NCBI GenBank assembly: GCA_022825185.1
Contig: JAJDYK010000166.1
Span: forward strand, 1-26,960
From: Candidatus Latescibacterota bacterium
Lineage (GTDB): Bacteria; Latescibacterota; UBA2968; UBA8231
DNA length: 26,960 nucleotides
Direction of reading: 5' to 3'
The notes under the pieces were generated by a model that worked only from the letters and a program-made list of their open reading frames with translations, had not been told where the DNA came from and searched no databases. Positions 10,685 through 26,960 of this stretch are shown one piece after another; positions within the stretch are counted from its first letter, which is position 1; every line of letters begins with the position of its first letter. The translations under genes and the position numbers were made by a program.

Positions 10685-12607
10685 TTAGCGCACCCCCACG
10701 TACACCACATTCCCCATCTCTCCGAGACAAAAGTCGATCACCATCCACATGGCCGCGCCCAAGAGCTGCCCGGCGATCAGCCCGACGAAGAGCGGCTTGT
10801 ACGTGAGGTAGCCGCGCGAGCCAGTGAATTTGAATATCACGGCCTTGCACAACCAGCCCAAAAACACCGAAAACCACGCCACGCCCATGACCCAACTATC
10901 GCTCACCGGCAGGCCGATGTAGTGCAGCGGCCACCACGGGAAGTGGTGCTGCATGTAAATCAGCCCGCCCATCAAGGCCGCGCCCACGCCCGTAAACAGC
11001 AGTCGCGGGCGGATGTGATCCCAGCCGACGGGATTGTGGATCTTGTCCTCTAAAAATCGATAGGCCAGCGTCGGCACCCCGAACTGGCGCAGATTAATCC
11101 CACCGTGCGTATAGTTCAAATAGAGGGTGATCCAGAAGGCCCCCATCATGCCGACGACGACCGCGATAACCAGCCCCCAGAACAGGCGGCGGTGATTGGC
11201 TCCATGCCCGTGCGCCAGCTTGAGTGCGTTGGCCGTGGAAGCCATGACCGTGGTGCGCATTTCAGCGGCCCACGAATAGCTCAGGCTAATCGATGCCAGC
11301 CCCTTCCAACCGATGACATCCGTGCCCAAGGTATAGACCGCAAAGGGCTGCGGCAGCATAGTCGAAGAGGTAAAGCCCACGCCGCCTTGGGCGATGACCC
11401 GCGCAATGGCCAAGAAAATGGCAAACGCCCCGCAGAAAAACACCACGGCCGCCACCACTGGCACCCCGCTCAGTAGCAGCCAGCCGAGGAAGTAAGCCGC
11501 GCAGACAATCCACAGCCACACCGCCGCCCGGTACGAGAGAATCTCATCGCCATCGTCGGCTTGGACCCCACGCCTAAACGCCGCACCGAACACTTGGCGC
11601 AAGTGCCCGCGCGCCGTCCACAAAATCGCCGCCACCAGCACCAGCATCGCCCCCATCCCCTGATGCGACAGGGCCACTGAAGAACCCGTCAGCGCCTCAT
11701 TGTGCCCTTTGACCTCAAAGCCGATGACGTTAAAAACCCCGGTCTGGCAACGGCTCAACAAGTGGAAAAACCACACCGAGAAGGCCACGTTGAGATTGAG
11801 GAAATACGCCACGCCAATGATGGCAAAATTGACGAAGATGTGCAGCCGCACGCTATCGCGGAACAGCGTCAGTGGGTCGAACACCAGCCGCACCTCGGGC
11901 ACGTAAAAGAAGTAGTGATTCAGCCCGTCCAATACTTGGATGGCAAAGGGCAACGCAAAACCGACCCACATCAGCGGATTGCGAAACAACTGCGGGAAAA
12001 TGCCCTCGTCGTTGCCGCGCAGCATCTCCAAGGGCACCTGCGCCAGCGGAAAGACCAACCGCTCCTGTTCGACCCAAGGCCGCCGAAAGACGACCATCGT
12101 GGCGATCATCATCAGATAGACCGCTAGCATCGCGCTGCCCCAAGCTGCCAGCGGCACCAGCCAAGCGCCCCACGGAATGCCCATCCCCGCGGGCAGCCCC
12201 TCGTAAAAGAAGCGCGCAGCCTCGGCTTCGTGCGGCGCAAGCCAAGCGGGAATCAGCGGTTGAATCAGCTCGGTCCAGCGGTTTTCTGGCGTGGCGTAGT
12301 AGAAGGGGCGGGTGAGGATGTGGCACAGATTGGTCACCAATCCCCACGTGGGAATCGCCGACGCCACGACCATCATCGCGTACACGACCACCAGCTCGCT
12401 CGTGCGCAGCGCCCAAGACCTGATGGTTACTTTTAACAGGGGGTTGATCAGCCCGACGAGAACCAAAAAGACCATCATCGCGCCAGCCGCAATGTAATCC
12501 GAGGTCAGACCGGCGTTTTGCAGGACGAGTACTGAGTAGGGACAAGCTAAGTTCAAGAAGAGCGCCGCGCCCGCACCCAATACGAGAGCGCGCCGCGTCA
12601 CCTCCAA
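10685..12607 (-). CDS. DUF6785/DUF6784-type (OPT-like) multi-pass membrane transporter
   Basis: A 640-residue protein with about fourteen hydrophobic segments. Recognisable stretches are the N-terminal helices (RALVLGAGAALFLNLACPYSVL), a cytoplasmic-side motif RRPWVEQERLVFPLAQVPLEM and a C-terminal WFSVFLGWLCKAVIFKF. The ERLxFPLAQ motif resembles the entry motif of oligopeptide-transporter (OPT) proteins. I recognise the protein as the DUF6785 + DUF6784 pair common in Planctomycetes-, Armatimonadetes- and Poribacteria-like genomes; substrate is not established. Start is TTG at 12607 with GGAGG 7 bases upstream. It is homologous along its length to the partial gene at the right edge (for example LGWLCKAVIFKF against LAWLCKAIVLKY). 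It is upstream of, and probably co-transcribed with, the oxidoreductase. Confidence 0.75.
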   Translation of the reverse strand: MEVTRRALVLGAGAALFLNLACPYSVLVLQNAGLTSDYIAAGAMMVFLVLVGLINPLLKVTIRSWALRTSELVVVYAMMVVASAIPTWGLVTNLCHILTRPFYYATPENRWTELIQPLIPAWLAPHEAEAARFFYEGLPAGMGIPWGAWLVPLAAWGSAMLAVYLMMIATMVVFRRPWVEQERLVFPLAQVPLEMLRGNDEGIFPQLFRNPLMWVGFALPFAIQVLDGLNHYFFYVPEVRLVFDPLTLFRDSVRLHIFVNFAIIGVAYFLNLNVAFSVWFFHLLSRCQTGVFNVIGFEVKGHNEALTGSSVALSHQGMGAMLVLVAAILWTARGHLRQVFGAAFRRGVQADDGDEILSYRAAVWLWIVCAAYFLGWLLLSGVPVVAAVVFFCGAFAIFLAIARVIAQGGVGFTSSTMLPQPFAVYTLGTDVIGWKGLASISLSYSWAAEMRTTVMASTANALKLAHGHGANHRRLFWGLVIAVVVGMMGAFWITLYLNYTHGGINLRQFGVPTLAYRFLEDKIHNPVGWDHIRPRLLFTGVGAALMGGLIYMQHHFPWWPLHYIGLPVSDSWVMGVAWFSVFLGWLCKAVIFKFTGSRGYLTYKPLFVGLIAGQLLGAAMWMVIDFCLGEMGNVVYVGVR

Positions 12608-12778: not shown

Positions 12779-13495
12779 GTGCGCAAATCCCCGTACACGG
12801 CCGCGGACTTCAAGGCCAGCAAGCCCGAGGTCATGGGGCTAGTCGAAGTCCTGTTCAACCGCCGCCTCTCCACCCTGCTCACCCGCCTGTTGGTCCGCAC
12901 CCCCCTCAGCCCCAACCAAGTAACGGTCCTTTCCTTTCTCGTCATCCTGCCCGGTGTGTATCTGCTCTCTACGGGCGAACGCATGGCCCTCATCGGGGCC
13001 GGCCTGCTCATCCAACTATCCTTTACGCTCGATTGCTGCGACGGCGAACTCGCTCGTTTGCGCGGCCTCAGCTCGCCGTTTGGCGCTTGGCTCGACGGCC
13101 TGCTCGACCGCATCGCCGAACTGGTGCTCTGCCTCGCGTTGGGACGCGCATTGGAGCGCCAAAGCGGCGATCCGCACGCCTACCTTTACTCCTTTGTCGT
13201 CTTCGCTGCGCTGGCCATGACCCACATCGCCACCCTGATGAACGCCACGGCCTTTGGCAAGGGGCAGCTAGCCGAATCCGCGAGCCGCGGCCTGTTTGGT
13301 CGCTTGGCCGACTTCGTGCGCGTTCCGCCGCTGAAATTGCGCAACTATCTGCGCAGCGGCATCGACGTCTATTTAATGGTTTTCGCCCTAGGCGCGGTGT
13401 TTGACCACCTCATGGGGGTCGTCTATTATTTCGCCGTCGTGCAGAACCTCTATTGGTTAGCCATCGTCTTAATGGTGATGCGGCAAAAAAAGTAA
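12779..13495 (+). CDS. CDP-alcohol phosphatidyltransferase family membrane enzyme
   Basis: A 238-residue integral membrane protein carrying the full family signature D-x2-D-G-x2-A-R-x8-G-x3-D-x3-D: D85, D88, G89, A92, R93, G102, D106, D110. These Asp residues bind metal and the CDP-linked donor, so the enzyme should transfer a CDP-activated alcohol headgroup or lipid. SPNQVTVLSFL before the second helix is typical of the family. About six hydrophobic helices follow. The start is GTG at 12779 with AGGAG 6 bases upstream. It is first in a tight plus-strand cluster: 13 bases separate it from the MscS-like gene. Acceptor alcohol (inositol phosphate, glycerol phosphate or other) is not determinable; the length and SPNQ motif also fit phospho-inositol type members. 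Confidence 0.85.
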   Translation: MRKSPYTAADFKASKPEVMGLVEVLFNRRLSTLLTRLLVRTPLSPNQVTVLSFLVILPGVYLLSTGERMALIGAGLLIQLSFTLDCCDGELARLRGLSSPFGAWLDGLLDRIAELVLCLALGRALERQSGDPHAYLYSFVVFAALAMTHIATLMNATAFGKGQLAESASRGLFGRLADFVRVPPLKLRNYLRSGIDVYLMVFALGAVFDHLMGVVYYFAVVQNLYWLAIVLMVMRQKK

Positions 13496-13508
13496 CTGGG
13501 GGTGTCGT

Positions 13509-14345
13509 ATGGAACCTAGCCTATCCGCTGAGATGCTCGCCGTTCTTAGTTCCGTTCAAGAGAGCTTTTTCCGCGTGCTACCCAAATTGGTCGTCGCCCT
13601 AGTCATACTGTTCGTCGGGTGGCTCGTGGCGTGGTCGCTCCGCACGCTCGTGCGCCGAGTGGTCGAGCGTTTTTCCAAGCGGATTACCGCAGGGGCGACT
13701 GCTCGCGCTTGGCAACAGGCCCTAGCCGACCAAGGGGCAGGGCGCGTTTTCTCACGCAGCGTCTATTGGCTCGTCTTGTTGGTCGCAGTCATGGTGGCCA
13801 GTGAGGCTGTCGGGCTCCCGGTTTTAACCACCTATCTGGCCGCTTTAGCACAATACCTGCCTAGGGTCATCGCGGCGATCGTGGTACTGTTCGCCGGCGT
13901 CATCGGAGGTCGCCTCATTAGCGATGCGGCCATGACTACGGCCTTTCGCTTGCTGCCGCATCAAGGGCGGCAATTGGCCCGCCTCGTCCGGGGAATCATC
14001 ATCGGCGCGGCCATTCTCGTGGCAACCAAGCAACTCGGAGTAGATGTATCGCTGCTGACGAACATCTTCTTGATCGTGCTCGCCGCACTCATCGCCGGTG
14101 CGGCCTTTGCGTTTGGGCTGGGTGCCCGCAGCATCATCGCCAACATCCTCGCCATGCACTACGTCAACAAGTCCTACGACGTGGGTCAGCGGATTCGCCT
14201 TGGCGACGACAACGGGCGCATCGTGCGGACGACCTCCACCACCGTTTTTGTCGAGCACGCCGAGGGCGAGTTGGGCATCCCCGGCCAGCAATTCTTTGAG
14301 GAGCGCTGCCTCCGCGTAAGCAAAGGAGAGTCTGGTGAATCTTGA
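13509..14345 (+). CDS. Small MscS-like mechanosensitive channel protein
   Basis: A 278-residue membrane protein. Helices at roughly residues 20-45, 85-105, 120-140, 155-180 and 185-215 precede GLGARSIIANILAMHYVNKSYDVGQRIRLGDDNGRI, which matches the pore helix to beta-domain junction of MscS proteins. The terminal VFVEHAEGELGIPGQQFFEERCLRV is a short beta domain; the usual alpha/beta C-terminal cage is absent. It resembles the conserved-TM-helix subfamily. Likely role: tension-gated release of solutes, or a regulated ion leak. The stop overlaps the next gene by 11 bases, indicating translational coupling with the MgtE-related genes downstream. Start ATG at 13509 is preceded by GGGGGT. Confidence 0.8.
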   Translation: MEPSLSAEMLAVLSSVQESFFRVLPKLVVALVILFVGWLVAWSLRTLVRRVVERFSKRITAGATARAWQQALADQGAGRVFSRSVYWLVLLVAVMVASEAVGLPVLTTYLAALAQYLPRVIAAIVVLFAGVIGGRLISDAAMTTAFRLLPHQGRQLARLVRGIIIGAAILVATKQLGVDVSLLTNIFLIVLAALIAGAAFAFGLGARSIIANILAMHYVNKSYDVGQRIRLGDDNGRIVRTTSTTVFVEHAEGELGIPGQQFFEERCLRVSKGESGES

Positions 14346-15177
14346 ACGACAGCTCCTCGCGCAATTTGCAACCGATCATCCGGCGGAAGTCGCGTCCTCT
14401 CTAGCGGCCATGTCACACCGCGAAGCAGCGCTGGTGCTCGGCGATCTAGCGCCAGCAGTTGCAGCGGGCCTCTTGCACTACCTGCCGTCGCTCTCTGCGG
14501 CCCTCGCCCTAGAGCAGCTAGCCGTCGAAAAAGCGGCCGCCATACTCATTGCCGTGCGTCCAGATATCGCCGCGGCCATCTTGCGGGCGACTCCGAGCGA
14601 GCGCCAAGCCGCAGTCGTCGCTTGCTTTCCCTCGCGCCTCCGAGCCGCGATTTCGAGCCTGCTCATCTACGCCGAGGATACGGCCGGGGCGCTCATGGAC
14701 CCGGAAGTGCTCACCGCATTCGAGCAGGAGCCTGTGCTCCAAGTACTCGAACGGCTCCAGCGCAATCCCGAGCACGCCCTCTACTATCTCTACGTGGTAG
14801 CCGACGATCAGCAGCTAGTCGGCGTCGTCAACATGCGGGAACTAATGGGCGCGCGGCCCGATGCATTGCTCGCATCGGTCTGCACGCGCAATGTCGCATC
14901 CATTGCCGCCAGCGCCACTTGGCAAACCGTGTTGGGGCACCCAGCGTGGGGAAGCGTCCACGCGCTGCCCGTAGTGGACAAGGCCGGCCAGTTCGTCGGT
15001 GTTCTCCGCTACGAAATCGTGCGGGCTTTAGAGCGACGCCAAGCTAGCGACACCCTGACAGATAGCGGCCTGCAAACGGCCTCGGCCCTCGGCGAACTAT
15101 TTGGCCTCGGCCTGCGCGGCGTATTTCACTGGCCTACCTCCGGGACCGCCAGTGGTTCAAGCGAGCGAGAGTCGTGA
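14335..15177 (+). CDS. Stand-alone MgtE N-domain plus CBS pair, no membrane domain
   Basis: A 280-residue soluble protein. Residues about 5-110 form helical repeats of the MgtE intracellular N-domain (HPAEVASSLAAMSHREAALVLGDL), and 110-245 match the MgtE CBS pair (EDTAGALMDPEVLTAF, LYYLYVVADDQQLVGVVNMREL, VHALPVVDKAGQFVGVLR). The expected transmembrane half is absent: the protein ends after about 35 polar residues. In full MgtE this module senses cytosolic Mg2+ and closes the pore. GTG at 14335 has AAGGAG 6 bases upstream. The gene overlaps the MscS-like gene by 11 bases and the next gene by 1-4 bases, so it is made together with the complete MgtE. It may be a separate regulatory subunit or a remnant of duplication, though the open frame and good start argue for function. 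Confidence 0.82.
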   Translation: MNLERQLLAQFATDHPAEVASSLAAMSHREAALVLGDLAPAVAAGLLHYLPSLSAALALEQLAVEKAAAILIAVRPDIAAAILRATPSERQAAVVACFPSRLRAAISSLLIYAEDTAGALMDPEVLTAFEQEPVLQVLERLQRNPEHALYYLYVVADDQQLVGVVNMRELMGARPDALLASVCTRNVASIAASATWQTVLGHPAWGSVHALPVVDKAGQFVGVLRYEIVRALERRQASDTLTDSGLQTASALGELFGLGLRGVFHWPTSGTASGSSERES

Positions 15178-18931: not shown

Positions 18932-19052
18932 CAATCACCAGCTAAAGATGCGGTTATCGGTCATGCCCGTGCAGGCGTCGATAACCAGCCAGACTCCCGC
19001 GCTAGCAAACTGGCCGAGGATCGCCCCCATGAAGAACGGGCGAACGGCGCGG
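18932..19052. repeat. Left copy of 121-bp direct repeat flanking the cassette
   Basis: Matches 25532-25652 at an exact 6600-base offset without gaps, differing at 7 of 121 positions. It starts 3 bases beyond the transporter stop codon and ends 38 codons inside the gene. All seven differences are third-position synonymous changes in the transporter frame. Confidence 0.95.
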
Positions 19053-19278: not shown

Positions 19279-19686
19279 TTGGCCTTACCGTTTGAATGTA
19301 TTATAGACGGTCCTCCTGTTTCACAACAGGCACGTCGCAGAGAGCGCGTACACCAATGGGGACAGGAGGTACGACGTGTAGCAGAGCAGTATTGGTCAAC
19401 AGAAGAATTGCCTGTTGATAGTTCGATCATTATCACCATCACGTACTTCTACGATGGTTCATCTATGGATGTTGACAACCTGCCTAAACCAATCATTGAT
19501 GCTTTAAAAGGACTCATTTTTCTAGACGATGGTCAAGTAACGGATTTACTATGTCGCAAGCGCAGTCTTCGTAGAAAGTTCCGTATTCTGAATCCTTCAA
19601 GCGTTCTTGCTGAAGGTCTAAGTCGAGGGAACGAATTTCTCTACATTGTCGTCGAGGAAGCACCCGATCAAGAGGTGATTAACTGA
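19279..19686 (+). CDS. RusA-like Holliday-junction endonuclease
   Basis: A 135-residue protein with the RusA core DVDNLPKPIIDALKGLIFLDDGQV. D64, D66, K70 and D83/D84 match the spacing of the E. coli RusA catalytic residues D70, D72, K76 and D91. RusA cuts four-way DNA junctions. Start is TTG at 19279: the resulting MALPFECIIDGPPVSQQARRR is a typical N-terminus of bacterial RusA-like proteins, and no ATG lies nearby in frame. The ribosome site is weak. The stop overlaps the next start by one base (TGATG), so expression is coupled to the REase-HEPN protein. RusA genes usually sit in prophages; no phage genes are seen here, only HerA, NurA and methyltransferase genes. Confidence 0.85.
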   Translation: MALPFECIIDGPPVSQQARRRERVHQWGQEVRRVAEQYWSTEELPVDSSIIITITYFYDGSSMDVDNLPKPIIDALKGLIFLDDGQVTDLLCRKRSLRRKFRILNPSSVLAEGLSRGNEFLYIVVEEAPDQEVIN

Positions 19687-20357
19687 TGGAAACAACCATT
19701 ACTCTGGAAAAACAGCATGTCCGTGCTCTCGCCGAAGAATACCGTAGCCAAGGCTATGAAGTGATCGAGGAGCCATCGCAGGAGCAACTGCCGTCCTTTT
19801 TGACTGGCTACTACCCTGACTTGCTGTTGCGTAAAGCAAGTGAAGGGATTGTTGTCGAGGTAAAATCCCGAACGTCTCTGGCTAAAGAATCTCAGGTCAG
19901 AGAGTTGGCCCGGTTGCTGCGAACCCAACCTAAATGGAGCTTCGAGTTGGTCGTGGTAGATGCAGGGGAACAACTCGAGGCTATCGAGGATGTACATCCC
20001 TTCACAAGGGAAGACATTCTGCGCGGTATCGCAGAAGCTGAACAACTACTTTCATTCGAGTTTGCAGAAGCCGCATTGTTGCGGGCGTGGTCATCGGCAG
20101 AAGCAACCGTGAGACTGCTCGTAGAGGAAGAGGGCTTGTTGACCGATCAGCCTACGCCTCGCTACATATTTAAGCAGGCTGTGATAAACGGCGTAGTTTC
20201 AAGAGAAGATTACCGCTTTCTGCTCCAAATACTGAGGCATCGCAACGCACTAGTCCACGGTTTTGCCCCGCCTGATTTCGACGCAACCCTTGTGCGAGCA
20301 CTCATCGACACGACGAAGCGGCTTTTGCAGTCAACAACGTCGATAGAATCGGTCTAA
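19686..20357 (+). CDS. PD-(D/E)XK nuclease-like (AHJR-like) protein with C-terminal HEPN-like domain
   Basis: A 223-residue two-part protein. Residues 1-105 look like a restriction-endonuclease fold: PD at 44-45, then VVEVKSR with E58 and K60, the D...ExK arrangement of archaeal Holliday-junction-resolvase-like nucleases (REase_AHJR-like). Residues ~110-215 are helical and contain RNALVH (R186 to H191), the R-x4-H motif of HEPN domains, which are often RNases in defence and toxin systems. The pairing suggests a nuclease linked to an RNase or dimerisation module. It is translationally coupled to RusA and ends before a terminator shared with the opposing operon. Whether the HEPN motif is catalytic is unknown. 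Confidence 0.7.
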   Translation: METTITLEKQHVRALAEEYRSQGYEVIEEPSQEQLPSFLTGYYPDLLLRKASEGIVVEVKSRTSLAKESQVRELARLLRTQPKWSFELVVVDAGEQLEAIEDVHPFTREDILRGIAEAEQLLSFEFAEAALLRAWSSAEATVRLLVEEEGLLTDQPTPRYIFKQAVINGVVSREDYRFLLQILRHRNALVHGFAPPDFDATLVRALIDTTKRLLQSTTSIESV

Positions 20358-20456
20358 TCACAGTCAACGACCACCACGGCTTTTGCTGCAATGATTTGAG
20401 TACGTTCGACGAGAGGGATGGCGAACCCAACATGCCGCTTGAGGGTTGAGAAAACA

Positions 20457-20492
20457 AAAATGCCCTAGTGCTTTACTGCACTAGGGCATTTT
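20457..20492. terminator. Bidirectional intrinsic terminator between the two cassette operons
   Basis: AAAATGCCCTAGTGC pairs perfectly with GCACTAGGGCATTTT over 15 base pairs around a six-base loop (TTTACT). Its A-rich and T-rich ends let it stop transcription from both sides: the REase-HEPN gene (stop 20357) and the methyltransferase gene (stop 20506). Confidence 0.93.
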
Positions 20493-20505
20493 CTATACGA
20501 GTTGG

Positions 20506-21663
20506 TTATCCCCGAGTACGCAGCTTGGCTGGTCTGAACTGCCGCGTGAATCCTTTTCGTCTGCGTCTCGGTGCCATATAAAGCAAATCAATTTCTCCAG
20601 GCTTTGGTTCGTGGTCTCCGTATAGTGCCGTCTGAGTACTGCCCAGATATGGTGCTGGATTCTCGTAAGGTCTGTGGTCAGGCAGCAATTCGCCCATGAC
20701 GTCAGTAATGATCTTTTTGGTTTGTAATCTGGCGTCGGAGCGAATATACCAGATGGTACGCGGATGGGTCCTTTCTTTAGTCGCTGTCAGGCATTCCCTT
20801 AGCATACGGCGATATGCTTCTGGATTGGCAAACTTTTGCTCTGGGTTCCAATCCGGTAGGCTTGGTCCCTCTCCAAGTGCCCACAGCCTGAGCCAATTGT
20901 CGGCCCGGTAGTTGGTAACGTTGCTATATGGTGGAGAGGTCAGCACTAGGTCAACAGGAGTATAGGTTTCTGGTAAAGCTGCTGCGGAGTCTCCGAGGGT
21001 GACTGTCGGGGTTTTCTCACCGGATGGTCTCGGAGTGCCTTTGGCGTAGCGCCAATCTGCTCTCTTGTGTAGGAATTTCTGCGGGTCTATCTCCGGGGGG
21101 GCGGAGTACCCATTCCGGCACCACCATTCAATACAGTAGCGTGGTGATAGAGCACGTGAGTGGCGCATCTGATTGGACAAGCCGTGTCCTTTTTTATCGT
21201 GCAAGTGCTGGATCAATAGAGTTGCGACGGTTCGATCCAGACTGCTAGTGCGCCAAGCCAATTCCCTACGTGCTATTTTGATGAATGCCAGTACGCTAGG
21301 GCAGAATGCCATTTCCTGAAACTCGCTTTCTGCCTTGCCGTCATCTGGGCCTGCGGCTTCCTGTAATTGACTGATACGGGCTTTCACCTCTTCCAGACTA
21401 GGGTGGGGGTCAGTTTTGGTCTTGGCGTACAGCCAAGCTACTGGATTGACATCGCAACCGATTGCCCTAATACCGTTCACCATTGCGATGAAGGGTACAG
21501 TCCCTCGTCCGCAGAAGGGGTCTATCACTGTCTGTCTAGGTTTTGTATAGAGATCGAGGATGCTCTCGACGAAGGATATTGGAAACATTGCGTAGTAAGG
21601 ACCGAGCCGGGCCCACCGTCCCGCGGCTGTGCTGTAGGAGAGGTCGGCACGGTTTGACTTCAT
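20506..21663 (-). CDS. DNA methyltransferase (N4-cytosine/N6-adenine type)
   Basis: A 385-residue amino-methyltransferase. SAM-binding motif I is DPFCGRGT (residues 48-55), followed by GIRAIGCDVNPVAWLYAK. Catalytic motif IV is TSPPY (242-246) in VDLVLTSPPYSNVTNYRADNWLRLWALG. The SPPY form is most frequent in N4-cytosine enzymes but also seen in N6-adenine ones. Motif I comes before IV with a roughly 190-residue spacer likely holding the target-recognition part. Start ATG at 21663 overlaps the NurA stop by one base (TAATG), so it is translationally coupled, last in the HerA-NurA-methyltransferase operon. No classical restriction enzyme is adjacent; the NurA nuclease or the REase-HEPN protein would be the cutting partner if this is a self/non-self system. 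Confidence 0.9.
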   Translation of the reverse strand: MKSNRADLSYSTAAGRWARLGPYYAMFPISFVESILDLYTKPRQTVIDPFCGRGTVPFIAMVNGIRAIGCDVNPVAWLYAKTKTDPHPSLEEVKARISQLQEAAGPDDGKAESEFQEMAFCPSVLAFIKIARRELAWRTSSLDRTVATLLIQHLHDKKGHGLSNQMRHSRALSPRYCIEWWCRNGYSAPPEIDPQKFLHKRADWRYAKGTPRPSGEKTPTVTLGDSAAALPETYTPVDLVLTSPPYSNVTNYRADNWLRLWALGEGPSLPDWNPEQKFANPEAYRRMLRECLTATKERTHPRTIWYIRSDARLQTKKIITDVMGELLPDHRPYENPAPYLGSTQTALYGDHEPKPGEIDLLYMAPRRRRKGFTRQFRPAKLRTRG

Positions 21664-23015
21664 TACGACGGGCGTGAGTTCGTATCGTCAAAGAGGTTGG
21701 CAAGGATGCGCTGCCCCTGCCGTAGTGGTATTGCGGCATGGGCGTTGGCGCGTATCAATGGAATGAATCCGTCTTGGTACAGATGGGTGTAAAGATCATC
21801 TACGATGTCGAGGGCTTCACCTAGGCGTGGAAAGGCAATCAATTCCGTGCAGTTGGGTTCCCGTCCGGCGGAGTTGACGATAGGTGTCATCACTACTGCG
21901 TGCTGGCCTGTCTGGTTTTTGTAGAGGATTTTGCGTCCATAGTAAACGGCTTGCCCATATGCTTTTTGGGTATCAGGATTAGGCCTGATGTGCCGGTAGA
22001 TATACTCGGTCGTAGGTGCTAAGGCGGTGCTGTTTTGCAACCGCTGGCGTGGCCCTTGGGATTGATGCCAATCCAACTCTTCCAAATGATCTAGAAACTC
22101 GCCAGTTTTCTCCATACCCATTAGGAGCAGTCCTGCGTGACCTTGTTCTACTAGATCATTATGAATGTATGCTATCTCAGTCTGGATGTGTTCTTTTAGC
22201 CAAGCTGGCATCCCAAAGATGGCCAGTGGACCATCCATGACGAATGCTATCTCGTCGAACCATTGTGGAGGATGGTTCTGGTGGAAGTATCTCAGGATAT
22301 TGACCATAAGGAGGTGCTCGGTCACCATACGGAAGGCCGTGAACGCCTGTTCGCTGCTACTATTGTCGTAGAATCGCTCGTGTGTGCGCAGGCTATCCGT
22401 CGGATAGAGTTGCTCACGATCATTGCAGCAGCAGACGGTGTCCTCCCATGGTCTAGAAATTCGATGTTCGCAGTCCTCTAACGGGCACTGGAACTTTTTA
22501 TCCTCACCAACGTGGTCTCTAGTGATGGCAAGAAATGTTTCCAGCAGTGATTCATGCTCCGGGTCTAACTTGAAGTTGAGCTCTTCCCGGATGGTTGAGC
22601 GAAAGAATTTTTTAGGAGTGTCCTCCCCTAGCTTTTTTCCTACCACATTAGGGCCGGGTAGGACTGCACTCATTGTGTGGACTTTTTCTAAGTTGCGGAG
22701 TTGGCTAGGACTGGGGATGTAGTCACCACCAAATTTACTAAGTTCGTCGGTTTTAATGACGATGACGGCAGCGTTAAACAGTGCGGCTTCGGCTTTAGGA
22801 AATCCGTTCTGTACTGTTTTGATAACAGTGGAGCCGTCGATAGCTACGATTCTTCTGATGGTTCTCTGCCTGCGTGGGGGAGAGATGACAGGTGGAAACT
22901 CATAGGATTCCTGTTGGTTCCTGATGCGGATAGCACCTCTAAAATTCTGGACACTTTCGTTGTCTTCCAGTCGCCATAGAGAGTCACCCGTTGCTTTTTC
23001 GTTTTTGTATGGCAT
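21663..23015 (-). CDS. nurA: NurA-domain nuclease with Cys-rich insert
   Basis: A 450-residue protein with the NurA layout: RRIVAIDGSTVIK with metal-binding Asp at 60, IAFVMDGPLAIFG with a second Asp at 261, and a C-terminal FIPLIRANAHAAIPLRQGQRI carrying the conserved His. NurA proteins are 5'-3' exonucleases/endonucleases that work with HerA on DNA ends. Between the two Asp motifs is an insert with C177, C182 and the C195-C197 run, followed by YPTDSLRTHERF, suggesting a small zinc-binding module found in bacterial NurA relatives. The start ATG at 23015 is 18 bases after the HerA stop, without a clear ribosome site. HerA directly upstream strongly supports the assignment. Confidence 0.87.
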   Translation of the reverse strand: MPYKNEKATGDSLWRLEDNESVQNFRGAIRIRNQQESYEFPPVISPPRRQRTIRRIVAIDGSTVIKTVQNGFPKAEAALFNAAVIVIKTDELSKFGGDYIPSPSQLRNLEKVHTMSAVLPGPNVVGKKLGEDTPKKFFRSTIREELNFKLDPEHESLLETFLAITRDHVGEDKKFQCPLEDCEHRISRPWEDTVCCCNDREQLYPTDSLRTHERFYDNSSSEQAFTAFRMVTEHLLMVNILRYFHQNHPPQWFDEIAFVMDGPLAIFGMPAWLKEHIQTEIAYIHNDLVEQGHAGLLLMGMEKTGEFLDHLEELDWHQSQGPRQRLQNSTALAPTTEYIYRHIRPNPDTQKAYGQAVYYGRKILYKNQTGQHAVVMTPIVNSAGREPNCTELIAFPRLGEALDIVDDLYTHLYQDGFIPLIRANAHAAIPLRQGQRILANLFDDTNSRPS

Positions 23016-23033
23016 AGATTGATGGGCTATCTG

Positions 23034-25223
23034 CTAGAACGGTAGCTCGTCTCGTTGCTGCGGACGAGGATGGCTGTTTACCTGATCATCTTCCTGCGGA
23101 GGAGCCGGTGGTGCGGTGAACATGTCCATCTGGACGGGGATAGTATAATAGCTAGAGCGGGTTCTGATTTTGATGAGACCGGCTTCTGATACGTTGATGA
23201 TGCTGCTGGTGAAGTCATCGAAATCATTGAACTTGCGTATCTGATTGGTTTCGTCGGTGTTGTTTAGGTGGGCTATGAACCAGTTCTCGGTATTCTTGAG
23301 GATGTTGGGCTGGAGCGATGATGGTTCTTGGGTGGAGTACACCATCCCGATGTTGAACTTAGCACCTTCTTTGGCAATTCTGGCCCAGATATTGCTATTA
23401 TCGTCTTCGCTGGCTCTCGGTAGCAAGGTATGTGCTTCCTCGGCATAGACGATGACAGGTGGTGGCTTGATTATTTCTTCTGTGTCGGGGGCTATCTGTG
23501 GCTGACTGAAGGAACGCTGTTGTTCTTGGAACAGCCGACGGACGATGCGTTCGGCGGCTTGGCGGTTCATGTCAGGGTCCCCCAGCAGTTGGTCAACAAT
23601 GACCAGTTTTCCTTGACGGACTTGGGTTACGATCTGGTCGGCGTAGTCTGCTGTGGAGCTCAAGTCGTGCCAGACGCGGGTGCTTTGAATGATGGAACGG
23701 GCACGAGTGTTGTCGTAGAATCTAAGCAGTCCTAGCAGGTGGACATCACTCCAATTCCGTCCATCATGGGACGATGCGTAGTTGCTGTCGAAATCTCTGA
23801 ATACGTTCTCTTTGACCCATTTGGCCAGTGCTTTGGTAAAGTTGCCAGCGACTTCCCAGGACATGACGCCAGACTGTAGTGGACCGACGTACTGTCTCAT
23901 ATCGTCAGACTCGCTCATACGCGAGCGTATGTTGTCGCCGAATAAGCCTCTAACGTTAGCGTCTCCTTCGTATTGAAATCCGGTTTCGGCCAGTATGCTG
24001 CGATACACGAACAGCCGGCGGCGGAAGCGAGTATATTCGCCGCGCTCGGTGATATGCGCTTCGGTGGATACATCGGCGTTGCGAAATGCTTCGATGTAAC
24101 CACCGCTCTCTTCAGCCAAGGCGTCGTTGATTATTTGCTTTCCCTGGTACAAGGTGCGCAACTGCTCGTTCAGTGCTTCCTGACTAGGCGGCGATGTCGG
24201 TTCATATGCACCGTAGAAATTGAACTTGGTGATGTGCCGACTTTCGTCATAGGGATGTTCAAATGACCCATAGGTATGGACTTCCTCAGCAAACTCTTGC
24301 CTCTCGTACTTCAGATTGCGGATGCAGCCTTGGTCTTGAGGGTTGTCGTTGGCGTACTCACCGTTGGGGTCGAAAATTAGTTGACCAACGCGTGTTCCGC
24401 TTGGGGATTGTCTGAGTTTGAACAAAGCAGCGGCAATGGTCTTGGTAGTGTTGGACTTGCCGGTTCGAGTCATTCCGAATAGAGCGGTCCGCTGGGCGAT
24501 AAAGTCTTCCGCCGTGATTTCAACAGGCGCTGATTCGGGTGTGTTATCCTCTTTTATAGCGGCAGAGTAGCGGAGGCGACCGATGCGCGTAGTCGGAGTT
24601 TGTCCTGGACCGTTACTACGATAGTTGACAATTCTTTGCAAGGCGTCGCCGTTTGGCTTGTAAATCTTCATGCCCTGTCCGGCATAAAAATTGTCGATGT
24701 CAGCACCGAAATGTAACTGCCATTCGTCATTCTGTTCTGGCTGGTATATCCGAAATGTACCCAAAATGCGGCATTTTACACCGGCGTACCGGAGCAGATT
24801 CAAAGTGAATTGGTCTGTCTGCTGAGCATCGTCATAGTTTTGCCCGGTGTCGTTGGAGCGTTGCACAATCTCGAACCTGGTCTTATCGAGGTCGATATCC
24901 GAGTTAAGCTTGGTGCCGCCGGATACTCTAAGCAACAGTAGAGATACACGGCTGTCCGTCAGGTCCGTTATGGGAGGGTCGTCAGGAGTTATCCGACTTG
25001 CGATAAGCAAGCAGCCGTGAGGTACGCCGTTCGCACGGTTTTTATGGCTGTCATGGATGAGTATCTCGGCGGAGTCGTAATCTAGGCTGAGTAGGTCACC
25101 GATGTACTGGTCCGAATTGATGAGGCTGACAAGTTCTAGTAAGGTCGCGGATTTTTTATCCGCGGCTATGTCATCACTTACTCCCGTAAGAAAACCTGTT
25201 TCCCCGTTTTCCGGTATGGTCAT
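23034..25223 (-). CDS. herA: HerA/DUF87-family DNA-translocating ATPase
   Basis: A 729-residue ATPase. The N-terminal ~220 residues form a HAS-barrel-like region; Walker A is GMTRTGKSNT at about 247-256; LIFDPNGEYAN is the HerA-specific motif after it; Walker B is VIVYAEEAH near residue 595; and KFNIGMVYSTQEPSSL is the sensor region, close to the family's RKY/RKF segment. HerA forms hexamers that pump DNA for NurA resection. A proline-rich acidic tail (PPAPPQEDDQ) ends the protein. ATG at 25223 is preferred because AAGGG lies 7 bases upstream; a TTG at 25241 would add six residues. First gene of the minus-strand cassette operon, preceded by a good promoter. Confidence 0.9.
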   Translation of the reverse strand: MTIPENGETGFLTGVSDDIAADKKSATLLELVSLINSDQYIGDLLSLDYDSAEILIHDSHKNRANGVPHGCLLIASRITPDDPPITDLTDSRVSLLLLRVSGGTKLNSDIDLDKTRFEIVQRSNDTGQNYDDAQQTDQFTLNLLRYAGVKCRILGTFRIYQPEQNDEWQLHFGADIDNFYAGQGMKIYKPNGDALQRIVNYRSNGPGQTPTTRIGRLRYSAAIKEDNTPESAPVEITAEDFIAQRTALFGMTRTGKSNTTKTIAAALFKLRQSPSGTRVGQLIFDPNGEYANDNPQDQGCIRNLKYERQEFAEEVHTYGSFEHPYDESRHITKFNFYGAYEPTSPPSQEALNEQLRTLYQGKQIINDALAEESGGYIEAFRNADVSTEAHITERGEYTRFRRRLFVYRSILAETGFQYEGDANVRGLFGDNIRSRMSESDDMRQYVGPLQSGVMSWEVAGNFTKALAKWVKENVFRDFDSNYASSHDGRNWSDVHLLGLLRFYDNTRARSIIQSTRVWHDLSSTADYADQIVTQVRQGKLVIVDQLLGDPDMNRQAAERIVRRLFQEQQRSFSQPQIAPDTEEIIKPPPVIVYAEEAHTLLPRASEDDNSNIWARIAKEGAKFNIGMVYSTQEPSSLQPNILKNTENWFIAHLNNTDETNQIRKFNDFDDFTSSIINVSEAGLIKIRTRSSYYTIPVQMDMFTAPPAPPQEDDQVNSHPRPQQRDELPF

Positions 25224-25531: not shown

Positions 25532-25652
25532 CAATCACCAGCTAAAGATGCGATTATCGGTCATGCCGGTACAGGCGTCGATAACCAGCCAGACCCCAGC
25601 GCTGGCAAACTGGCCGAGGATCGCCCCCATGAAGAACGGGCGCACGGCGCGG
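25532..25652. repeat. Right copy of 121-bp direct repeat flanking the cassette
   Basis: The 3' end of the partial transporter gene plus three bases past its stop. It aligns without gaps to 18932-19052, with 114 of 121 identical bases. Confidence 0.95.
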
Positions 25653-26960
25653 AAACCGCGCGGCCCCCAGTATTTGAGGACGATGGCCTTGCACAGCCAC
25701 GCCAAAAAAATCGAAAACCAAGAGTGACTCATCAGCCAGAGACCGGCGATGGGGAAGCCAATGGGGTGTACGGGCCACCACGTCAGGTAGTGCCGGGCCA
25801 GCATCAGACCGCTCATGATCGCCGCGCCGATCCCCGTAGAAAACCAACCCTCCCAACTAGGCCCGGTGGGGTTGAGCAAGAGGCGGGCGACAAAGCTCTC
25901 GAATGGGGCGCGGGCACCGCCGCCAAAAAACCAACGGTTGAGGTTGATGCCGCCGTAGCGGTAGGACAAATCGAGAATCGCCCACATCGAACTAACCATG
26001 CTGACCAGCACTGCCAGCATCAGCGCCCAGAAGAAGAGGCGGTGGCGTCCCGGCTGGCCGTCGAGCAGCTTGAGGGCGTGGGCGGCCGAGGCCATTACCA
26101 CGACGCGCAGTTCAGTGGCCCAAGTAAAAGAGAATCCGAGAGCAGTAATGCCGGTTTCGCCGACTGCGGTTGTGCCAATTCCCGTGGCGACGAAGCTCTG
26201 AGGCATCATCGGCGTGCGCGCTTCGGGCACCCCACTTTCGGCGACGATGCGGGTCAGCGCCACGAAAATGGCAAAGGCACTGAGCAGGAAGAGCAGGGCA
26301 ACCAGCGGCGGCATGCCGCTCAGATAGAGCCAAACCCCGGCAAAACCCAAGCTGGCCAGCGCGCCACAGACTGCGACGCGGTAGGAAAGGATCTCGTCCG
26401 AGTCATCGACATCTTCGGCATTGAAAAACGCCTTGCGGCACACGTCCTTGAGGTGCCCGCGCCCCACCCACAGCGTAAGAGCGACTAGCGCGATCAGCGC
26501 CCCCATTTCCTGGTGGGCAATCGCCGGTGGATTGACGCTAAAGGTGTCTAATGCCTCGCCAGAAGTGACGCCGAGCACGCCGTAGAGTCCCTTTTGCACA
26601 TTGACCAGCACGTTGCAAAACCACAGGCTGAACGCGATCTCGAGGTTGATCAGATAGGCAAAGCCGAGGACCGGGAAGCTGAGCACCACCGGCAGATGCA
26701 CACTGTCGCGGAAAAGACTGATGCCCGAAGAAAGCTGGATTTGCGGAAAGACGTGGAAGTAGTTGTGGAAGGCATTGGTCGAAGAGATGAGGCAGGGAAT
26801 GGCAAAACCAATCCACAAACTCGCGCTTTTGAAGAACGGCGGCAGCCGGCTCTCGTCGCTTTGGCGCACCATGTCGAGCGGCAATTGCGCCAGCGGATAG
26901 ATGAGCTTTTCGCGCTCGATCCACTGGCGGCGCAGGACCACGGCCACGCAGATCATGGCG
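25535..26960 (-). CDS. DUF6785/DUF6784-type (OPT-like) transporter, partial (5' end outside window)
   Basis: About 475 C-terminal residues are present; the frame runs off the right edge. It is a polytopic membrane protein homologous to the transporter at 10685-12607: RRQWIEREKLIYPLAQLPLDMVRQSDE matches that protein's RRPWVEQERLVFPLAQ region, and GGINLNRW, LTWWPVHPIGFPIAG and WFSIFLAWLCKAIVLKYWG match its C-terminal half. The last 38 codons are duplicated at 18935-19052 on the far side of the cassette. If the cassette integrated inside the gene, this end could be an element-supplied replacement that restored the reading frame. Substrate unknown. Confidence 0.78.
   Translation of the reverse strand, partial: AMICVAVVLRRQWIEREKLIYPLAQLPLDMVRQSDESRLPPFFKSASLWIGFAIPCLISSTNAFHNYFHVFPQIQLSSGISLFRDSVHLPVVLSFPVLGFAYLINLEIAFSLWFCNVLVNVQKGLYGVLGVTSGEALDTFSVNPPAIAHQEMGALIALVALTLWVGRGHLKDVCRKAFFNAEDVDDSDEILSYRVAVCGALASLGFAGVWLYLSGMPPLVALLFLLSAFAIFVALTRIVAESGVPEARTPMMPQSFVATGIGTTAVGETGITALGFSFTWATELRVVVMASAAHALKLLDGQPGRHRLFFWALMLAVLVSMVSSMWAILDLSYRYGGINLNRWFFGGGARAPFESFVARLLLNPTGPSWEGWFSTGIGAAIMSGLMLARHYLTWWPVHPIGFPIAGLWLMSHSWFSIFLAWLCKAIVLKYWGPRGFRAVRPFFMGAILGQFASAGVWLVIDACTGMTDNRIFSW

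Follow-up and report, generated by a model that had tools for sequence, protein, structure and literature searches.

A conserved HerA–NurA–methyltransferase gene triad on an inserted island of a Latescibacterota bacterium, a candidate methylation-guided defence system

The window analysed here is a stretch of 26,960 nucleotides from a Candidatus Latescibacterota bacterium (assembly GCA_022825185.1, contig JAJDYK010000166.1), in which an island carries five genes. Three of them, encoding a HerA/DUF87 ATPase, a NurA-fold nuclease and an S-adenosylmethionine (SAM)-dependent amino-methyltransferase, constitute a conserved core, hereafter referred to as the triad. The other two, encoding a RusA-like endonuclease and a protein composed of an AHJR-like restriction endonuclease-like (REase) part and a HEPN-like part (REase-HEPN), are a two-gene unit separate from the triad. 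With moderate confidence, we read the triad as akin to a restriction-modification system: base methylation would be the self mark and HerA–NurA would degrade unmarked DNA, the RusA/REase-HEPN pair being independent cargo. The triad looks like a defence system because it is conserved, patchily distributed, inserted, situated among genes that match defence-gene models, and closest to TdpAB.

At E 0.001, 457 homologues of the window's NurA-like protein were obtained, and a scan with its family profile, taking one genome per species, yielded 17 loci. The methyltransferase gene lies beside the NurA-like gene in all 17 and the HerA gene in 16, while RusA or REase-HEPN occurs in none of them (DNA up to 10 kb on each side), and apart from the triad no gene cluster is common to more than two of the loci. 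The exceptional loci are L026, where HerA is absent, NurA truncated and the methyltransferase kept; L020, where NurA is split over two frames; L015, where the N-terminal part of HerA is in another frame; and L010, where HerA begins at a contig edge. The triad is also encountered in distantly related bacteria and on a plasmid of an archaeon. Among relatives it is patchy, being present in 3 of 100; a wider NurA profile matched 5 of 385 relatives and outgroups, in all 5 of which HerA and methyltransferase sequence adjoins the match (the locus in genome G045 seems to be that of L010). HerA fragments were also seen in G028 (C1:4049572-4049985) and G040 (C66:4388-5455), one with an internal stop; the NurA search was negative there, and the fragments are possibly the remains of decayed modules.

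A first-pass annotation of the window had proposed a modification-guided defence built on HerA, NurA and the methyltransferase, and had counted all five genes as one system whose families should co-occur within 10 kb. The co-occurrence holds for the three families and fails for the five, and the defence part of the proposal is retained for the triad on the grounds given above. That RusA and REase-HEPN act with the triad as one five-gene system is highly improbable: both sets share one insertion, but none of the 17 triad loci contains either gene, the pair exists alone, and in G030, G031 and G399 REase-HEPN and the triad are both present, on different contigs or far apart. The five-gene unit was thus rejected.

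The separateness of the RusA/REase-HEPN pair follows from its absence at the triad loci together with its recurrence alone. Of 100 relatives, 8 hold REase-HEPN, and in 5 of these RusA is the gene immediately before it. When the search was started from RusA, 6 of 50 genomes matched; the five strong hits all precede REase-HEPN, and the sixth genome gave weak hits only. Among 16 triad-holding genomes searched, REase-HEPN occurs in five, preceded by RusA in three of these and never within the triad locus. The recurring unit, in the order RusA then AHJR REase-HEPN, was seen at window positions 19279-20357 and in L034-L036, L040, L042, L059 and L061-L063. In the nearest relatives RusA is more conserved than REase-HEPN (49-63% vs 36-39%). 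A search of the open literature for RusA together with HEPN in a defence context gave no paper.

The layout of the island is given in Table 1. The RusA stop overlaps the REase-HEPN start, the NurA stop overlaps the methyltransferase start, and HerA and NurA are separated by 18 bp, a spacing that suggests co-transcription of the three triad genes. The hairpin between the two operons has a folding energy of -26.9 kcal/mol (z -7.1), equalled by 0 of 200 shuffles, and is preceded by A's and trailed by T's. The GC content is 0.49-0.53 within the island and about 0.58-0.66 outside. What the first-pass annotation had described, namely five DNA-processing genes in two coupled operons converging on one terminator, in a lower-GC segment with duplicated flanks, was borne out by the open reading frames (ORFs), the hairpin, the GC drop and the 121-bp direct repeats.

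Table 1. Features of the island and its borders, with window coordinates
Feature	Position	Strand	Remarks
Left 121-bp direct repeat, left island edge	18932-19052		Duplicates the 3'-terminal stretch of transporter-like gene 25535-26956
RusA-like endonuclease	19279-19686	+	TTG start; first gene of the RusA/REase-HEPN pair; DVDN..K..DD stretch seen in the sequence, which we take to be catalytic
AHJR-like REase with HEPN-like C-terminal part	19686-20357	+	PD..EVK and RNALVH motifs
Two-way terminator-like hairpin between the converging operons	about 20456-20493		Folding compared with shuffles
SAM-dependent amino-methyltransferase, core gene 3	20506-21663	-	Motif I DPFCGRGT before motif IV TSPPY
NurA-fold nuclease, core gene 2	21663-23015	-	Cysteine cluster C177/C182/C195/C197
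HerA/DUF87 DNA-translocase-type ATPase, core gene 1	23034-25223 (ATG) or 25241 (TTG possible)	-	GMTRTGKS and YAEEAH motifs
Right 121-bp direct repeat, right island edge	25532-25652		Located in the intact transporter-like gene, at its 3' end
Multi-copy transporter-like gene, open at the window end	25535-26956	-	3' end is the insertion site

An empty site with a single repeat copy is present in all eight relatives compared (8 genomes, L044-L051), in which the window sequence up to 19052 is joined to the sequence from 25532 through one copy of the repeat; the insertion therefore amounts to 6,600 bp and duplicated its target. The two repeats of the window differ from each other at 7 positions. Of the two, the right copy resembles the relatives more closely in all 7 comparisons over the full length, by only 1-4 differences (L051, with 118 bp, was left out). 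The transporter-like genes 10685-12607 and 25535-26956 resemble each other in sequence, and DNA like the latter is multi-copy in the relatives (27 matches in G001).

With respect to protein families, Pfam matches were obtained for RusA (E = 7.7e-11), AHJR-like REase (1.4e-27), N6_N4_Mtase (7.1e-12) and DUF87/HerA (2.1e-11), and the methyltransferase carries motifs I and IV. The NurA-like protein of the window matched nothing in Pfam, PADLOC, NCBIfam or PHROGs at the thresholds used. Its NurA nature is recognized from the fold search and from the sub-threshold matches to canonical NurA (PF09376) in its family, which were found in 8 of 21 members (best E 0.003), the window protein itself matching 0 families. 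Against the PDB, the fold search alone gave a meaningful match for it, TdpB, and the NurA profiles gave nothing meaningful among the PDB sequences. For HerA, TdpA is the best PDB match both by profile and by fold, a likeness to be read as similarity and not as proven orthology. The HEPN assignment involves a weak HepT-like Pfam match (E 0.018) and an R[N/D]xxxH motif that all but one of 13 aligned proteins retain, including that of the window; in the REase-HEPN of L034 the glutamate of the EVK motif is replaced. PADLOC (2023), used as single-protein models without its system gene-set rules, matched HerA and the methyltransferase (MTase_II models), and none of its models matched NurA, RusA or REase-HEPN. 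Since the NurA-like nuclease escapes these models, systems of the triad kind may be under-counted.

DNA end resection is the role traditionally ascribed to HerA–NurA, and recent biochemistry questions it (PMC12977600). The names of the two proteins are the classical resection names, and the pair could accordingly be a second set for double-strand-break repair that takes no part in defence. However, the triad is patchy and inserted, whereas a canonical PF09376 NurA is widespread among the relatives (40 of 60, and within the nearest genus 10 of 11 genomes); G031 and G045 hold both NurA types, with the canonical copy elsewhere in the genome. The linkage to a DNA methyltransferase and the biochemical doubt just mentioned also speak against resection. 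We give this explanation very little credence, and a resection-only role is disfavoured by the commonness of canonical NurA.

The genes around the triad lean towards defence. Within 5 kb of the triad at the 17 loci there are 115 ORFs, which matched 156 PADLOC models at 1e-20, as compared with 16 for 124 control ORFs, which is a trend and not a rate because one protein, for instance a methyltransferase, can match many models. The controls came from the same genomes, from one set position on contig 1 in 16 genomes (other contig 1 places for six), the L022 genome and the L069 stretch (1452 bases) being left out. This unpicked ORF set replaced a first PADLOC look at ten hand-picked neighbour proteins. 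Among the 25 of the 156 models that were listed are Zorya II, type I and IIG enzymes, PtuA, DarG, TmtA and PDC-M01A; the complete control list comprises 12 methyltransferase models, 3 RtcR and 1 DEDDh. Many triad neighbours are ordinary metabolic genes (Pfam tally, 25 of 127 families listed). At L025, positions 12988-15014, type II Zorya genes (ZorA2, ZorB2) were seen about 0.5 kb downstream of the triad.

Two observations bear on how the three components evolve. One is that pairwise identities across 15 loci and the window correlate at 0.97 between HerA and NurA and at 0.75-0.79 between the methyltransferase and either of them (L026, truncated, and L020, with NurA in two frames, were left out, and HerA of L015 was used without its N-terminal part). 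Another is found at L014, whose methyltransferase belongs to the L016/L019 lineage (61-69% identity), while its NurA is nearer to L015, L017, L018 and L024 (59-63%) than to L016/L019 (53-56%), and its HerA slightly so (54-58% against 51-52%). Therefore, HerA and NurA behave as a single unit, with the methyltransferase as its exchangeable component. HerA segments 31-54 and 566-588 of L014 and L020 lean to the other lineage and may co-vary with the methyltransferase exchange; no claim is made from this, as these two loci are alike, many segments were scanned, and HerA of L020 is overall a near tie between the lineages (55 vs 54%).

Distant relatives of the NurA-like protein (21-26% identity) were found in seven plasmid or phage records, and HerA adjoins NurA in all seven. 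A related methyltransferase is present in two of them, Halorarius and Deferribacter. The HerA gene of the Deferribacter megaplasmid (L029, 4141-7939) is interrupted by an IS200/IS605 TnpA-TnpB element. In the temperate Vibrio phages PQ189353 and PQ189371 (L030, L033), HerA–NurA and a methyltransferase lie between an annotated integrase and excisionase, and the HerA annotation consists of two ORFs in PE002 and of one in PE001. The methyltransferase of L030 matches the PADLOC model PD-Lambda-5_B (5.5e-120), and the window methyltransferase had no tblastn match in the Vibrio locus. In IMG/VR, 99 stretches matched a search pattern and none encodes a NurA relative, so that viral carriage rests on the two near-identical Vibrio records.

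For the mechanism, the following scheme is proposed. The methyltransferase would mark the bases of host DNA at its sites. HerA, a DNA pump that forms a hexameric ring in relatives, and the NurA nuclease would assemble, load on DNA, thread it and degrade it. The self mark would stop loading, translocation or cleavage, so that unmarked phage or plasmid DNA would be destroyed. RusA and REase-HEPN would travel on the island as a further cargo that is independent of the triad. The threading and degradation of unmethylated DNA are proposed by analogy with TdpAB and with Thermococcus HerA–NurA. The latter degrades both strands whatever the end structure, and antiviral use is suggested by the authors (PMC12977600).

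A precedent for the composition of the triad exists in the tdtA operon (TTC1877-1880) of the Thermus thermophilus element ICETh1, where genes for a nuclease resembling NurA, a HerA/FtsK ATPase and a methylase of the N4/N6 type stand together; the element is low in GC and has direct repeats matching a tRNA 3' end, and loss of the nurA-like gene or of tdtA reduces DNA donation (PMC5365140). The likeness of the triad operon to it is one of composition only: both combine these three protein types, and both the island and ICETh1 are lower in GC and have repeats that match the 3' end of a gene. The ICETh1 operon runs in the order NurA-HerA-methylase, and the element has the type IIG enzyme Tth111II and an integrase, which the island lacks. 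This precedent raises the chief alternative with experiments behind it, namely that the triad is a DNA-donation module like that of Thermus TdtA, HerA exporting cellular DNA or passing it to a partner, NurA processing it and the methyltransferase protecting or marking it, with the island as a reduced integrative and conjugative element. However, integrase, relaxase and secretion genes are absent from the island and from the commonest 25 of the 127 neighbour Pfam families, the closest solved kin is TdpAB, and the neighbours lean to defence genes. Donation is, in our judgement, quite improbable as the explanation, although either role may coexist with the other.

Apart from the looseness of the neighbour counts, several points weigh against the restriction-modification-like reading. 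No part that recognizes a mark or a sequence was identified in HerA–NurA, and both the antiphage effect and the methylation are predictions from sequence. The nearest operon that has been studied, that of ICETh1, serves DNA donation (PMC5365140). No integrase is found among the island's five genes, and it is the empty sites that point to its mobility. The methyltransferase can also be lost in decay, since at the decayed locus of G030 only a fragment of it matches, NurA is shortened and HerA is without about residues 89-239. The two Vibrio phages use a methyltransferase of another family, on the opposite strand. Finally, three cyanobacterial plasmids (L027, L031, L032) have HTH-HerA-NurA (HTH, helix-turn-helix) operons with no methyltransferase adjacent; in one of them a gene annotated as methyltransferase lies about 7 kb downstream. 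These plasmids, the change of methyltransferase lineages under similar HerA–NurA, and the end-structure-independent degradation by the Thermococcus pair are consistent with an attack on free or replicating phage DNA ends that reads no mark, the methyltransferase being a co-selected orphan or a regulator. In the clade of the window, however, the methyltransferase is adjacent at 17 of 17 loci, which is too constant for an orphan, and we consider the mark-blind attack unlikely.

The restriction-modification-like reading can be extended, tentatively and with somewhat more doubt than belief, to a widespread class in which HerA–NurA is held off host DNA by base methylation without a site-specific endonuclease. 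In such a class the pump or the NurA cysteine cluster would read the mark, methyltransferases of different families would be swappable, and the ICETh1 operon would be a member. A conserved triad on an inserted island ties HerA–NurA to self/non-self marking, and raises the question of whether base methylation stops the HerA–NurA machine. If it does, phosphorothioate-based and methylation-based defences would be joined, and the ICETh1 operon would gain a new reading.

No named defence system composed of HerA, NurA and a methyltransferase was found in the open literature, as far as its accessible text goes; subscription papers and preprints lie outside this scope, and the result is no proof of absence. 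TdpAB and the ICETh1 operon are close kin or parallels. Canonical HerA–NurA shares the NurA fold and the HerA ATPase, but the window's NurA is under the Pfam cut-off, linked to a methyltransferase, and accessory instead of lineage-wide. HerA-SIR2 (Nezha) and HerA-DUF4297 likewise combine a HerA ATPase with an effector partner; neither SIR2 nor DUF4297 is among the five island proteins, and their solved structures rank under TdpA. The HerA/FtsK capture systems, DndFGH and BRC also direct a HerA/FtsK ATPase and nucleases against invaders, and those considered here differ in having Orc/Cdc6, winged helix-turn-helix, REase, PglZ or SF3 helicase parts; the word "NurA" is absent from the main text of the two sources (PMC10853773, PMC12839542). 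PD-lambda-5, described as a compact prophage restriction-modification plus abortive-infection (RM+Abi) system in PMC9519451, is approached by the Vibrio relative L030 through its methyltransferase, whereas the window methyltransferase has no PD-Lambda-5_B match among the best 25 of 53. Type II restriction-modification systems share the DNA methyltransferase, but no cognate site-specific endonuclease is conserved beside it at the 17 loci. The gene set of MADS is mad1-mad8; the five proteins gave domain-level matches to mad2 (5.9e-5) and mad8 (1e-14) only and not the full set. TdpAB (PDB 8wet, 8wfd) remains the nearest comparison, being a HerA-like ATPase with a NurA-fold nuclease, an antiphage machine tied to phosphorothioate DNA, and the best PDB match of both window proteins. 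It differs in that the island's operon includes a base methyltransferase dependent on SAM, that the window NurA is longer (450 vs 358 residues) and has the cysteine cluster, and that identity in the structural alignments is low (16-20%). Tdp systems have a linked phosphorothioation enzyme, and no such enzyme family is matched by the island's five genes. The triad would thus work like TdpAB, with base methylation in the place of phosphorothioation.

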